Source: Hydrococcus rivularis NIES-593 (GTDB lineage Bacteria > Cyanobacteriota > Cyanobacteriia > Cyanobacteriales > Microcystaceae). Taken from it: a stretch of DNA of 34,869 nt. The translations under genes were made by a program, and so were the position numbers. Location: assembly GCF_001904635.1 (NCBI RefSeq), contig NZ_MRCB01000040.1, forward strand, positions 1 through 34,869, read 5' to 3'. Under the pieces are notes generated by a model. That model made no database searches. It was given only the letters and a program-made list of their open reading frames with translations, and was not told the origin of the DNA. Of this stretch, positions 4,189 through 34,869 are shown piece by piece (positions within the stretch are counted from its first letter, which is position 1; each line of letters starts with the position of its first letter).

Positions 4189-4689
4189 ATGAAGGACTCT
4201 TCCGTTCAATCGTGTCCCGTTCCTGACGAACAACAACCCCTTAAAGAATACGAACAATTAAAAGATTCTTGGTTCTTTCGCTGGGCAACTCTCGAAAGCC
4301 TTCCTTATTGGAGAAAATTTGCTTGGGTATGGCTTTGGGGCTGGATTGTCGTTGGACCGATTGCAGCGGCTAGTTTCCCGCCTCAAAAACATCCATTCTT
4401 ATTTACCTTATCTGGTGCGTTAGGGACTAGCTTGCTAGTGGCATTAGTGTTGTTGAGGCTCTACTTGGGTTGGTATTATATCCGCGATCGCCTCAAATCC
4501 GAGAAGGTATTTTATGAAGAGTCGGGATGGTATGATGGCCAAATTTGGCAAAAGCCACCAGAAGCGATCGCGCGCGATCGGTTAATCGTTTCTTATCAAA
4601 TCGAGCCGATTATGCAACGCCTGCGACGAACGGCTTTAATTTTGGGAATCTTAGTCGGGAGTGGCTGCCTAATCTGGCTGTCCCTATAA
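4189..4689 (+). CDS. Ycf36/CGLD27-family (DUF1230) membrane protein
   Basis: The 166-residue protein belongs to the family conserved in cyanobacteria, plastids (Ycf36) and green plants (CGLD27). Family features visible here are WATLESLPYWRKFAW, the first membrane segment around residues 48-62 (VWLWGWIVVGPIAAA), a second around 72-92, the motif SGWYDGQIWQKPPEAIARDR, and a C-terminal hydrophobic segment. The molecular function is not established; plant CGLD27 has been linked to iron-deficiency and photosynthetic fitness. It starts five bases after the rsfS stop, implying translational coupling. Confidence 0.88.
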   Translation: MKDSSVQSCPVPDEQQPLKEYEQLKDSWFFRWATLESLPYWRKFAWVWLWGWIVVGPIAAASFPPQKHPFLFTLSGALGTSLLVALVLLRLYLGWYYIRDRLKSEKVFYEESGWYDGQIWQKPPEAIARDRLIVSYQIEPIMQRLRRTALILGILVGSGCLIWLSL

Positions 4690-4735
4690 AAATCGAGCCA
4701 ATCCTTTCATCCAAAATCCTTTCATCCAAAATCGA
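4688..4735 (+). repeat. Tandem 17-base repeat in the leader of the asparaginase gene
   Basis: The unit ATCCTTTCATCCAAA occurs twice in tandem immediately before the ATGACC start of the asparaginase gene. The same words (TCCTTTCATC, CAAAATC, ATGACC) occur in the leaders at 17828-18051, 25453-25625 and 27510-27662, so this is a short copy of the dispersed composite repeat. Confidence 0.75.
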
Positions 4736-5689
4736 ATGACCAGAGGAAAACGAACCCAAGCACCGAGACTCGAAGTTCATTTACTCAGAGAAGGAATCGT
4801 AGAATCTACCCATCAAGTTGAGGCGACCGTCTGCGACGATAAAGGACGGATTTTGCTAGTTGCAGGAAGCGCCGAAACGACAGCTTTTATTCGTTCTGCC
4901 CTCAAACCGTTTCAGGCATTAGCCGTCACCAGCACGGGAACTTTAGAACGCTACGATCTCACCGACAAAGATTTAGCCATTATTTGCAGTTCTCATCGCG
5001 GTACTATCGAACAGGCACGACAAGTTTTTAACGTCCTCTGGCGTGCTGATATCGACCCCAGTTTCCTTCAATGTCCTACTCCAGAAGGCGCTCAAAGTCC
5101 TCTACAGCATAATTGTTCCGGAAAACATGCCGGAATGCTAGCCGTTTGCCAGCAGCGCCATTGGCCCCTCGATACCTATTTGCGGCGTTCTAATCCGGTA
5201 CAGCAGCTAATTTTAGGAAAAATAGCCGAATTATTGGGAATGCCGGGAGAAGAGTTGATTAGCGCTCGTGATGACTGTGGCGCTCCGACTTACTCGATGC
5301 AGATAGGGCAAATGGCGCATTTATACGCTCTACTTGCTTCTGGTAATAGTGTGGACTTAGAACGCATCGTTCGAGCGATGACTTATTATCCGCAAATGGT
5401 CGCTGGCGATGGGGCATTCGATACCGAATTAATGCGATTGAGCGAAGGGCATTTGGTCAGCAAATCTGGTGCAGAAGGCATTCAATGCGTCGGTCGCATT
5501 GGCGAGGGAATGGGCTTAGCAATCAAAGTTATCGATGGTTCTAAGCGAGCTAAATATGCTATTGCCCTTCATCTGCTCAGGCAAATGGGCTGGATTAGTA
5601 CGACGGTCGCTGAAACTTTGTCCGAACGATTTATGATTTTGAGTCGTTACAAGCGTTTAGAAGCGATTGGCGAATTATCAATGCCTTGA
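4736..5689 (+). CDS. L-asparaginase (asparaginase II / ReAV-like family)
   Basis: This 317-residue protein matches the asparaginase family typified by the Rhizobium thermolabile enzyme (PF06089 type), which hydrolyses L-asparagine to aspartate and ammonia. Motifs include an RSALKPFQALAV segment, ICSSHRGT near residue 82, HNCSGKHAGMLAVC around residues 124-137, SARDDCGAPTY and FDTELM. The cysteine and SGKHAG segments are those conserved in this family, which is unrelated to the EcAII fold. The start ATG overlaps the end of the dispersed repeat, and no strong ribosome site is visible. The gene follows the Ycf36-family gene by 46 bases and may be read from the same promoter. Confidence 0.9.
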   Translation: MTRGKRTQAPRLEVHLLREGIVESTHQVEATVCDDKGRILLVAGSAETTAFIRSALKPFQALAVTSTGTLERYDLTDKDLAIICSSHRGTIEQARQVFNVLWRADIDPSFLQCPTPEGAQSPLQHNCSGKHAGMLAVCQQRHWPLDTYLRRSNPVQQLILGKIAELLGMPGEELISARDDCGAPTYSMQIGQMAHLYALLASGNSVDLERIVRAMTYYPQMVAGDGAFDTELMRLSEGHLVSKSGAEGIQCVGRIGEGMGLAIKVIDGSKRAKYAIALHLLRQMGWISTTVAETLSERFMILSRYKRLEAIGELSMP

Positions 5690-30882: not shown

Positions 30883-32094
30883 CTAAAGGAGGCGCGATCG
30901 CGTTGACGTTACTCCCAATAAAATTGCGGGAATCAAGAAAAAGACACTGAAAATATAAGCAAAAGCAATATACTTTCTTTGGCTGGCAATTTGAGCTAAG
31001 GTTTGGGCAGCCAAGATAGGTAGATTTCTTAAGAAAGGAGTGCCATAGATCAGCGTTACCCCAGTGACATTAAAAAACAGATGAACCATGGCAATTTCAA
31101 GGGCAGCTAGATGGTTATCTACTACCGCAGTGGCTGCGATTAAGGCAGTCACGCAAGTGCCGATATTCGCGCCCAAAGTAAAAGGATAGGCTTCTTCTAG
31201 GGCGAGCAAACCCGTTCCTACCAGCGGGACGATCAGACTGGTCGTCGTCGATGAGGATTGAACTAAAATAGTGACGAGCATTCCCGACAAAATTCCCATC
31301 GCAGAACCCCGACCGATTGCGCTTCGCAACAGGATCTTTGCCTGTCCAACGATGGCAAGTCTCAGTAACTTCCCCATGTAGAGGATCGAGACAAAAATCA
31401 GTACTAAAGCGATCGCAATGAGAACAAGACCGTCAAACGGATGGGGGAAGACCTCTGTTGCTGCTTTCAAGAGGTTCGCGACAGGGGCAGTTGCGACTTG
31501 AATGACATCGAAGCCATTGAGACTGGTAGAGAAACTATTAACGAATAAATTGGCAAAAAATGAGGCAAACTTTTCTAAAAAATGAGTTGCAATCTCCAGT
31601 GGCAGAAAAATCAGAACGCAGGTTAGATTAAAAAAATCGTGAATGGTAGCCGCAGCGAAAGCACTTTTGAACTCTTCTTGGTTGCGGATATGTCCTAAAC
31701 TGACAAGGGTATTGGTAATCGTCGTCCCAATATTAGCACCCATCACCATCGGAACCGCAACCGTCACAGGCAGCCCTCCCGCGACTAACCCGACAATGAC
31801 AGAGGTTACCGTACTAGAGGATTGGATTAAGGCAGTCGTCAGGGTGCCGACAATTAAACCAGCTAGGGGATTGGTGGCAAACTGAAACAATTCTTGAGCG
31901 CGATCGCCCGCAACCGATTTGAAACCGTAGCTAATTATCCCTACCGCAACAATTAGCAAGTAAACGAGGGCAACGATCCCTATCCACAAGTAAGCAGAAG
32001 TCTTTTCTTGACTGGAATGCTCGATTTCTTCCGTCACGTTATCCATATAATTTCGTAGATTTGAGTCTGCCAGGAACTTCAGTTCCTGGCTCAT
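30883..32094 (-). CDS. Na/Pi cotransporter family (NptA/YjbB-type) membrane protein
   Basis: The 403-residue protein has about eight membrane segments in two inverted halves. Each half contains the signature QSSSTVTSVIVGLVAGG or QSSSTTTSLIVPLVGTG, followed by GANIGTTITN and GANIGTCVTA. This is the PF02690-type phosphate:sodium symporter repeat; the substrate is taken as phosphate, but this is inferred. The C-terminal PhoU-like domain found in some members is absent. The first 14 codons come from a hairpin repeat (copy B), so a later ATG at 32046 (MDNVTEEIEH) may be the real start. Confidence 0.86.
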   Translation of the reverse strand: MSQELKFLADSNLRNYMDNVTEEIEHSSQEKTSAYLWIGIVALVYLLIVAVGIISYGFKSVAGDRAQELFQFATNPLAGLIVGTLTTALIQSSSTVTSVIVGLVAGGLPVTVAVPMVMGANIGTTITNTLVSLGHIRNQEEFKSAFAAATIHDFFNLTCVLIFLPLEIATHFLEKFASFFANLFVNSFSTSLNGFDVIQVATAPVANLLKAATEVFPHPFDGLVLIAIALVLIFVSILYMGKLLRLAIVGQAKILLRSAIGRGSAMGILSGMLVTILVQSSSTTTSLIVPLVGTGLLALEEAYPFTLGANIGTCVTALIAATAVVDNHLAALEIAMVHLFFNVTGVTLIYGTPFLRNLPILAAQTLAQIASQRKYIAFAYIFSVFFLIPAILLGVTSTRSRLL

Positions 32095-32118: not shown

Positions 32119-32286
32119 GATGCTAGCACGCCCAGAAAATGAAAGTACTTCCTTGATGAAATCTTTATACAAACAGCCAAACTCTTATCCGTTTCTTTAA
32201 CCAACGCTAAACCAATCTACGTATGTTGGGAACTGAGAGCAGCAATTACAGCTCAAAAATCACGTAGCTGTTCTTGGTTGACAACG

Positions 32287-32580
32287 ATGATTCAAAGCAG
32301 GATGCGATCCAATTCAAAAATTGCTCAACTAATTTTCTACTGGTTAGAAGCTTTGCGCTATTGGCTCGATACTATTGAGATTCAAAATCGTAATTTGGCT
32401 CGATTTCTTTGTCGGGTCATTCCGGTTCAATGTCCCTTTGAACGAGATCTTATTTTCTTTGGTCGCAAGGTAGCCCATATCCCACCGCTATGCAAACTCA
32501 ATCCTTTCTACGAACAATTGGTGGGACTTCGTTTTCGTGCTGTCTGTTACCTAGTCGAAGAGTGCGGAGAAAGTATTTGA
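32287..32580 (+). CDS. Mo-dependent nitrogenase C-terminal-domain family small protein
   Basis: The protein of about 97 residues matches the short cyanobacterial family named for a Mo-dependent nitrogenase C-terminal domain. Family words include WLDTIEIQNRNLARFLCRVI, PVQCPFERDLIFFGR and PPLCKLNPFYEQLVGLRFRA. Four cysteines are present, at least two in the conserved core. It does not carry nitrogenase catalytic motifs, so the name does not imply nitrogen fixation; no nif gene lies here. A TTG at 32278 would add three residues. Function unknown. Confidence 0.84.
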   Translation: MIQSRMRSNSKIAQLIFYWLEALRYWLDTIEIQNRNLARFLCRVIPVQCPFERDLIFFGRKVAHIPPLCKLNPFYEQLVGLRFRAVCYLVEECGESI

Positions 32581-32587
32581 ACCTTTC

Positions 32588-33058
32588 CTAAAGCAATTTA
32601 AGAAAGGATTCCTCTAACTCGTATCCAAACATTTGCGCCATTGACTGAAGGCGAGACTGACTGGGAATTCCTTGCTGTTTGAGCCAGTCAGCTAGGACAA
32701 AAACTTTGTGCATGACAAAAATTTCTAGGGCTTCTGGGTTATACCGGATGCCTTCGCTACGGTTAAATTGATGGGGAACCAGCATTGCCGCGTAACGGGC
32801 TAATTCTCCCGCTTTCCAGTCGAGAAGAAAAGGCATCCAAGGATAAGCGGCATCTAAACGCACGAACCACAATCGGATTTCTGGAATTTCTGAGAGTTCT
32901 CTCGGATCGGCGGGATCGCGAGGATAATCAAAATCAAAGCTAATTTTTTGTTCGCCAGTGGCGATCGCGCCCTGTTTGAAAAGGCGATCGACGACTTCTC
33001 TCACTGGAGACAGATCCAATCCGTGTAAACATTCTCGATCCAAGGTAATTCTCATCAT
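32588..33058 (-). CDS. CRR6-family NdhI maturation factor
   Basis: The 156-residue protein belongs to the CRR6 family (DUF1817), whose members in chloroplasts and Synechocystis (Slr1097) help mature NdhI, the iron-sulfur subunit of the NDH-1 complex. Family features are FDFDYPRDPADPRELSE, RLWFVRLDAAYPWMPFLLDW, ELARYAAMLVPHQF and the C-terminal MAQMFGYELEESF. No zinc or iron-sulfur motif is present, consistent with an assembly role. It converges with the small nitrogenase-C-domain gene, with only seven bases between the stops. Confidence 0.9.
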   Translation of the reverse strand: MMRITLDRECLHGLDLSPVREVVDRLFKQGAIATGEQKISFDFDYPRDPADPRELSEIPEIRLWFVRLDAAYPWMPFLLDWKAGELARYAAMLVPHQFNRSEGIRYNPEALEIFVMHKVFVLADWLKQQGIPSQSRLQSMAQMFGYELEESFLKLL

Positions 33059-33184
33059 GCTTTGCTGTTGAATTCCTTGTTATTATTATGCTTTATCGTT
33101 TGCTGTCAGATCTTATCAACAAGGTACAACCTAGTTAAAGCCAGAGGCTTGAAACCTAAATTTTGAATTTTGAATTGTTTTTGG

Positions 33185-34687
33185 TCACTCATTCATGTTT
33201 CTAAGCGTAGCGACGGCGGAGGGAGATATCTGATTCAAATAGCGGAAAATCCAATATTTAAAGATAGTATCTAAAATAACTGGAAACGTAGCGATAAATA
33301 GAAAAATAGCGCTTCTATTTGCCGGAATTCCTAAATGATTTGCCAATCCTTATAGAATCACTTCCCAACCGTGGGGTGAGTGGAATCCCACAAACATATC
33401 GGTAAATAAAATTAGAATAAACGCCTTGGCGCTATCGCTCAGACCGTAAATAATATCGTTTAAAAAAGTCTTAACTGCTATTACACCTTTTGGGTTAGTC
33501 GCCACAACTCCAGCAAAAGCAATCAGTCCTAGTAGATCTGCAAAAACATTGGCGATCGCATTATTACTCTTGTAACGAAATTCTTCCGCCAATTCGTTAG
33601 CTTTTTCTGAAATCTTTTCTTCTATAGCTTCTGGAGAAAATTTAGGGGCATGATGTAATAGACTTTCAAATTTTAGTTCTTCTTCAAATGATTGAAACTC
33701 CTTCATTGCTTCTTCTTTCATTTCCCAGTTAATGAAGATAGGTGTTTTTTCTCCACTTCTATAGCGATCGATGAGAGGCAAAATGAGAAGTTGTTTTGAG
33801 AATGTTGAAGTCAAAGCAGGAATAATAATTAACAATACAACAAACTTGATAGCCTGTTGTGTAATTCGACGCGATCGCCGAAAATTTTGTAATCATTCTT
33901 CTTCTGAATTGGGATTCATTTCAGTTTTAATTTTGCCAATCGTTCTTCCGATCAATCTAGGTAGAACGCCACTTTTTTGATTTATAGGTTTGACATCAAT
34001 TAAAGTAATCTCGGATGATTTTACTTGAGATTTTGAGTGGCATGCCAATTGTAATGGTACAAGTTTTTCAGACAAACTAAGAGGTTTTAGTATAGGTTTT
34101 GCTTTGGCTGATATCTGATATTTTGTTAAAATTTGATCGATAAAACTAAGCTTATCTAGAAAATTATAATTGGCTCCTCGAAGTAGTAAACGACTAACTT
34201 TAAATTCTGCAATCTTTATTTTGATAATATTTAAATACTTATCCACATCAGCCTGAAAACAAGACAGTATATTTTGACTATAAATTTTAGACGTAGCAGC
34301 AACTTTTTGACCGCTGAAATGTTCGTCCTCTATCGCCTTAATTTTCAAAGCTGCCTGATAAGCTTGCTCTAAAGCTCTTTCTGGAGTTTTAAAAAACCAT
34401 TGATTGCTGGCTTTTATGGAACTGCTTATTTTGTCGAAAATATTGTCTGTAGATTGGGGCACTAAAAAATTTTTCATAATAATAAATAGTTCGCCTGGTT
34501 TAGTTTGCGTGAGTAAATTGAGATCGATTCGAGAGTCGGAACAGGGAATAAAAAGAATTTCAGGCGTTTGTCCCTGGGATAGCTGGCGGAACATTTCCTG
34601 ATGAATATTGAAGTAATTATTTTGAAACTCACTCAATCCTCGGATCATGCATTTAATTGGCATAGATGAATCCTGATAATTGAGCAT
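33185..34687 (-). pseudogene. pcxA: pcxA (cemA-type proton-extrusion protein) broken by two in-frame stops and fused to a carbonic anhydrase fragment
   Basis: One minus-strand frame is readable from 34687 to the stop at 33185-33187, 501 codons including stop, with internal TGA at codon 265 (33893-33895) and TAA at codon 446 (33350-33352). Codons 71-500 are PcxA, a membrane protein needed for light-induced Na+-dependent proton extrusion and CO2 use: KTPERALEQAYQAALKIKAI, then EE-stop-LQNFRRSRRITQQ, SDSAKAFILILFTDMFVGFH, HGWEVIL-stop-GLANHLG, and a C terminus [14 protein letters not shown]. Between both stops the frame is intact, with no frameshift. Codons 9-70 are the N-terminal part of a beta-carbonic anhydrase. 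A complete protein needs readthrough of both stops. Confidence 0.88.
34478..34663 (-). pseudogene. N-terminal fragment of a beta-carbonic anhydrase joined in frame to pcxA
   Basis: Codons 9-70 of the pcxA reading frame encode IRGLSEFQNNYFNIHQEM, followed by PEILFIPCSDSRIDLNLL and PGELFII. This is the beta-carbonic anhydrase N terminus, including its first zinc cysteine and the CSDSR Asp/Arg pair. The second zinc pair (His and Cys about 50-60 residues later) is missing because PcxA sequence begins after Ile70. The fragment cannot be an active enzyme. Confidence 0.85.
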
Positions 34688-34869
34688 CTTTGTAATTGAG
34701 CAAATCAGTGAAGAGTAGCTTAAAGATTAGGGAACATTTAGAAATATAAAAACAATAACTAATGGCTAATCCATTTAGCATCAATAACGAGGCAAATACC
34801 TCCGACTTTTTTCACTGGAGTTTAGACTAAAAAAGAAAGAACGGCAGCCAAAAGAGAACTTTAGCTACC
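34688..34869. other. Upstream region of the pcxA locus, window edge
   Basis: The 182 bases are AT-rich. A 22-codon frame starting at 34762 (MANPFSINNEANTSDFFHW) is too short and unrecognised to call. The region should hold the promoter of the minus-strand pcxA locus, but no clear boxes could be picked. Confidence 0.4.

Follow-up and report, generated by a model that had tools for sequence, protein, structure and literature searches.

A carbonic anhydrase-PcxA hybrid frame in Hydrococcus rivularis, very probably the remnant of a transporter/PII-like/carbonic anhydrase/PcxA gene cluster

Near one end of a contig of Hydrococcus rivularis NIES-593, a reading frame begins as a beta-carbonic anhydrase (CA) and continues as the proton-extrusion protein PcxA. 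Does it encode a fusion protein, or is it what is left of two neighboring genes? The DNA analyzed here (34,869 nt, referred to as the window) is the entire contig C35 of the source genome. On its minus strand, a 264-aa ORF (34687..33893) is open from the CA start across Met71 into PcxA, which confirms the in-frame joining at about Met71 that had been proposed from the letters of the DNA alone (the sequence-only reading). The N-terminal 70 codons (34478..34687, minus strand) belong to a CA of the type found in the operon described below. The Pfam model Pro_CA matches residues 44-71 of the hybrid ORF (7.1e-6) and the PcxA model NF002703 matches residues 86-263 (9.2e-39). The 62 aa encoded by 34663-34478 share 85% identity with the CAs of two relatives (L083 and L084), far above chance.

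The junction (34477..34478, minus strand) reads ...TTT ATT ATT / ATG AAA AAT... at 34478/34477 and marks a deletion: relatives have 537 nt (G011) or 680 nt (G012) between the same points. Absent from the hybrid are 162 CA residues, including the second zinc pair. A functional CA carries both CxDSR and GH[ST]xCG; the piece in the window keeps the first motif as CSDSR, and the second, with its His/Cys zinc pair, is deleted, just as had been noted earlier. As sequenced, the locus can yield no complete CA and no complete PcxA. The coordinates first given for the hybrid covered essentially the CA piece, while the real feature spans 34869 to 33185.

The PcxA half (33185..34477, minus strand) is a pcxA pseudogene of 431 codons including the final stop, with no frameshift and two premature stops. 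The hybrid frame does run into PcxA, as described before, but it ends short of the PcxA end at the first of these stops, a TGA (33893..33895, minus strand) ahead of the CemA membrane domain. PcxA homology continues past it in the same frame to 33185, through the second stop, a TAA (33350..33352, minus strand) inside the CemA domain, at a position where all 26 aligned members of the clade to which this pcxA belongs have glutamate. The match to the CemA membrane domain lies entirely beyond the first stop. A functional PcxA has this domain and the N-terminus in one open frame; here, the frame is interrupted by the TGA and then by the TAA. Otherwise the gene is well kept. It is changed at 2 of the 67 columns that are invariant in the 26 clade members, the TAA being one further invariant column. 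Each of the 26, when left out in turn, breaks 0-5 invariant columns, so that the fossil PcxA is not unusual in this respect. The death of the gene must therefore have been recent, or the stops are sequence errors; the invariant-column test gives no sign of a long decay and speaks against an old pseudogene.

The minus strand upstream of the CA codons contains a spacer and, beyond it, the last 17 codons and the stop of a second PII-like (SbtB2-like) gene (34759..34814, minus strand, with the codons and stop at 34812-34759; KKVGGICLVIDAKWISH followed by the stop). This remnant shows 74% identity over 19 residues to the joined G012 proteins (E 0.003, a short match). A genome of the same genus (G003) retains the second PII-like gene as an open 121-aa frame that ends KKVGGICFVIDAKWISH, together with a piece of the first PII-like gene. 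In the window, the gene is cut by a 55-nt repeat end (34815..34869, minus strand; ...TTAGTCTAAACTCCAG), which resembles the end of an insertion sequence and breaks the contig. The identical 55 nt are found at one end of contigs C1, C13 and C49, a related end (90% alike over 39 nt) at C15, C37, C39 and C54, and a partial 40-nt match within C34. Copies at several contig ends are what a multi-copy insertion sequence that broke the assembly would leave; the body of the repeat is not assembled, and no transposase was seen.

One of these contigs appears to continue the locus. The related repeat end closes C37, whose sequence can be followed in the close relative G002 (92-96% DNA identity) as far as L224:5638 (92%); the match of the window to G002 sets in at L224:5653 (94-96%). 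In all likelihood, C37 and the window therefore lie on either side of a single copy of the element, a pairing based on synteny with this one genome. C37 also carries a response-regulator fragment (G000:C37:30903-31253, L228) that has its own TAG and is cut by the repeat end. It is 71% identical over 99 residues to a response regulator located about 4 kb upstream of the transporter gene in G012, and probably forms the left flank of the element found at the end of the window.

The arrangement that these pieces recall is present in some Cyanobacteriales, where an SbtA2-like transporter, one or two PII-like (SbtB2-like) proteins, a CA and PcxA are encoded in this order on one strand. The 264-aa frame was searched for in 58 genomes, the source genome included. 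In two genomes of the same family (G011 and G012), a CA of 244 and 238 aa, respectively, is followed on the same strand by a PcxA of 425 and 431 aa, with gaps of 48 and 191 nt, and preceded by two PII-like genes and an Sbt_1 transporter of 324-326 aa. The start Met of PcxA in both genomes aligns with Met71 of the window frame. The sequence-only reading had considered relatives whose pcxA starts at this position with no CA sequence upstream; the start position was as it described, but the CA was not absent.

How often the order occurs was assessed in two samples that share five genomes. A search with the second PII-like protein gave matches in at least 169 of the 388 genomes of the order, and 40 fetched loci with strong and weak matches were combined with G011 and G012 into a PII-anchored set (n=42). 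The complete order was present in 10 of these 42 loci (tblastn pieces, counted by eye), this type of CA lay directly before PcxA in 12, and 3 had transporter, PII-like gene and CA with PcxA missing (L093, L099, L106). In 19, the transporter and a PII-like gene were found without CA and PcxA. For the CA-anchored set, the G012 CA was searched against named genomes and the best 80 of 191 confirmed stretches were taken. The CA precedes PcxA in 22 of these best 80: in 10 of these pairs the transporter and a PII-like gene are present in order (tblastn), 3 have the transporter or a piece of it and no PII match (L131, L135, L176), and for 9 the fetched stretch, in some cases a short contig, contains no transporter. 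Among the same best 80, a transporter and CA without PcxA occur at 4 loci and a CA with neither at 54. The samples were picked by CA or PII likeness, so the 42- and 80-locus counts are not frequencies. Carriers of the full order include Sphaerospermopsis kisseleviana NIES-73, Planktothrix rubescens PCC 7821, Microseira wollei, Planktothricoides sp. SR001 and Scytonema sp. NIES-4073. In the plasmid collection, no record covered 80% of the query.

Altogether, a CA gene of this type immediately precedes PcxA at 29 distinct loci, including two from the same family, which bears out the suggestion that a CA gene once stood beside pcxA. The two genes are fused at none of them, so the CA-PcxA junction, for which a search in other genomes had been advised, is not shared with any of these loci. 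Counted from the stop of the CA to where the PcxA match begins, the gaps are 37-360 nt; at 3 of the 29 (L125, L133, L141) the PcxA match begins only at about residue 153 or 166. L092 (partial CA), L094 (split CA), short-flank copies and five duplicate genomes were omitted. We also left out L107 (G149), where PcxA follows a CA, because this CA is just 25% identical and the PcxA falls outside the operon clade. Among the CAs at operon-linked loci, GH[ST]xCG is kept in 37 of 37, and the first motif is CSDSR in 31, CCDSR in 5 and CADSR in 1. Some loci deviate in their arrangement. G289 (L076:3964-7050) has two CA genes, one on either side of PcxA, and in Nostoc sp. WHI (L159:6732-6881) a PcxA fragment lies upstream of the CA, not after it. 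In L083 and L084 (about 4550-5212), both PII-like matches fall within one 213-aa open frame, possibly a natural PII-PII fusion.

In a phylogeny of 60 PcxA rows, one clade of 34 members (support 100/100) unites the fossil with the 29 CA-linked copies. The other four members are L092, L094 and L009, with a broken CA upstream, and L006, which has no CA within 9 kb. A second tree, to which ten rows were added (one of them the L006 gene) and from which eight near-copies were omitted, agrees on the operon clade (support 100/97), with a long-branch warning on one outside row; because of L107 and L006, the operon label requires three changes on it. Most clade rows derive from CA or PII searches, which biases the sampling; of the loci found by PcxA likeness, four fall in the clade (two with a CA, one with a CA remnant, one without), and a fifth, G054, is broken and was left out of the tree. 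The branch of the fossil is 0.32 long, that of the G011 copy 0.62 and that of the G012 copy 0.58. The intact PcxA of the source genome itself (on C40) is 48% identical to the fossil and lies outside the operon clade, beside the PcxA of G002. In the CA tree, the window piece, which fills 26% of the columns, groups with the CAs of G011, G012, G090, G386 (Sphaerospermopsis) and Dolichospermum; operon-linked CAs overall do not form one clade (10 label changes).

We conclude that the hybrid frame is very probably the pseudogene remnant of a cluster of SbtA2-like, PII-like, second PII-like, CA and PcxA genes. Gene debris had been named as the simplest explanation from the start, and it is supported by the two stops, the incompleteness of both halves and the CA-pcxA neighborhood in relatives. 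In the window, the CA piece lies directly upstream of PcxA, the PII-like piece upstream of the CA, and the PcxA is of the operon clade; the Sbt_1 transporter that heads the cluster is missing from it. A profile search of the source genome gave no Sbt_1 match, for which reason we regard the locus as a remnant and not as a working member. In the same genome, nothing else matched the transporter or the PII-like genes up to an E of 1, and these searches together with the profile revealed no second copy of the cluster. Recombination or deletion beside the repeat may have removed the transporter and the first PII-like gene, a deletion at or between copies of the element being the simplest course, and a separate deletion would have fused CA to pcxA, in frame by chance. 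The surviving pieces would have no present function.

Could the frame nevertheless encode something useful? A real fusion protein, in which a CA-derived segment precedes the soluble N-terminus of PcxA, would explain why 264 aa are open. We regard it as hardly credible and reject a functional fusion, because none of the 29 relatives is fused and both halves are incomplete: most of the CA and one zinc pair are gone, and the stop precedes the membrane domain. The same observations, with 162 CA residues missing, tell against the translational start shared by pcxA that the sequence-only reading had entertained. It is less far-fetched, though still improbable, that pcxA is alive, both stops being sequencing or assembly errors, and that a working operon-type PcxA starts at Met71 or at the CA start. 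The 431 codons without a frameshift, the retention of nearly all invariant residues and a branch shorter than the G011 and G012 copies have would fit such a gene. However, there are two separate in-frame stops, the genome is without the transporter, and the stretch before pcxA has been replaced by CA codons. The CA piece was also compared with the intact CA of the genome (C2:33308), of which it might have been a duplicate. The two are only 56% identical, against 77-85% for the nearest operon CAs, so a recent duplication of that gene did not give rise to the piece, and the duplicate explanation fails.

A further scenario concerns the arrival of the block and is compatible with the remnant reading. 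The block may have been gained horizontally and have broken afterwards or arrived broken, in which case G002 would represent the original empty site. Indeed, the block is absent from G002 at the corresponding position of an otherwise colinear site; colinearity ends at 33126, next to the downstream flanking gene for a CRR6-family NdhI maturation factor (32588..33058, minus strand). The block has six matches in the rest of G002, the longest of 374 nt at 74%; this one and one more lie at the other pcxA of G002 itself, and the remainder are shorter than 60 nt. The genes that flank the cluster are also not alike between G011 and G012 (by eye). On the other hand, the lone second PII-like gene kept by G003 suits loss from a shared ancestor, and we consider horizontal gain rather unlikely. 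Further downstream, the window contains a free-standing Mo-nitro_C domain (32278-32580; PF06967, 2.5e-39) and a Na/Pi cotransporter family protein (30883-32094), both of which G002 has too.

If the Hydrococcus locus is such a remnant, it is one of several. A deletion in G214 has brought the PII-like gene up against the middle of the CA, out of frame, and in G052 the beginning of the first PII-like gene continues into the tail of the CA, also out of frame. The CA of G176 is split into two pieces 1.7 kb apart. G054 has a transposase-like stretch (by eye) inside a broken PcxA and no CA match, and a PcxA tail is the sole remainder in G166. Clusters in which deletions or insertions have disrupted the CA or PcxA part were observed at L092, L205, L094, L100 and L096. 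Free cytosolic CA harms carbon concentration. Since in G214, G052 and G176 the CA is broken yet PcxA is in one open piece, these sequences suggest that the CA can be the costly part and might tend to break while PcxA stays. The seven loci of the two samples with a CA and no PcxA argue against a fixed order of loss.

How does the intact cluster relate to known systems? SbtA2-SbtB2, a bicarbonate transporter and its PII-like partner, is named in a review (PMC13249358). The cluster is alike in that an Sbt_1-family transporter is followed by PII-like genes, and unlike in that it can continue into CA and PcxA. We use "SbtA2-like" as a name by likeness, not as an assignment to the SbtA2 family of that review. 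The transporter is distant from SbtA1 (PDB 7cye, matched in two pieces, E 2.7e-26). For the second PII-like protein, the best solved match is PDB 5d4n (E 1.7e-7), recorded as Nitrogen regulatory protein P-II and presumably the carboxysome-associated PII-like protein CPII; unlike CPII, the protein here adjoins an Sbt_1 transporter. The solved chain nearest to the operon CA, over residues 17-223, is 5swc, which we take to be a CcaA-type beta-carbonic anhydrase. CAs at CA-PcxA loci end 28-32 residues past the core (30 sequences), compared with 79-104 residues in 14 of 56 other CAs; a further 26 of the 56 are equally short, so that a short tail is no marker of the operon type. CemA and the NCBIfam PcxA models match the fossil, G011 and G012 copies, which links them to the PcxA/PxcA (CotA) and CemA family, although the G011 and G012 copies score under the curated NCBIfam cut-offs. 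In contrast to the other PcxA proteins sampled, including the intact one of the source genome, the operon copies form the separate clade described above.

PcxA homologues are reported to control proton extrusion and uptake across the plasma membrane (PMC9174948), and PcxA is linked in the literature to proton extrusion and the holding of bicarbonate. In an intact cluster, SbtA2 would import bicarbonate, gated by the PII-like proteins; the CA would interconvert bicarbonate and CO2, and PcxA would extrude protons, keeping the cytoplasm alkaline enough to hold bicarbonate. From the gene order we infer that the parts of the cluster, which is often incomplete, work together. A description of SbtA2, PII-like, CA and PcxA genes joined in one cluster was not found in the parts of the open-access literature searched. 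As a tentative suggestion from gene content, more doubtful than the remnant reading, the cluster might be an undescribed bicarbonate-uptake module of a number of Cyanobacteriales, in which an SbtA2-like transporter, one or two PII-like regulators, a short, probably cytosolic CA and a dedicated PcxA paralogue would function as a unit and couple bicarbonate import to proton extrusion. What is novel is the gene cluster with its own PcxA clade, not the hybrid debris. The recurrent neighborhood ties a distinct PcxA clade to a CA, with a bicarbonate transporter in about half of the cases seen, and such a cluster, with a PcxA of its own, would offer direct genetic access to the way in which proton extrusion serves inorganic-carbon uptake. 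Another type of carbonic anhydrase lies near the G012 cluster: an alpha-carbonic-anhydrase-like frame (by eye; L033:15085-15891) adjoins the response regulator and kinase upstream of it.
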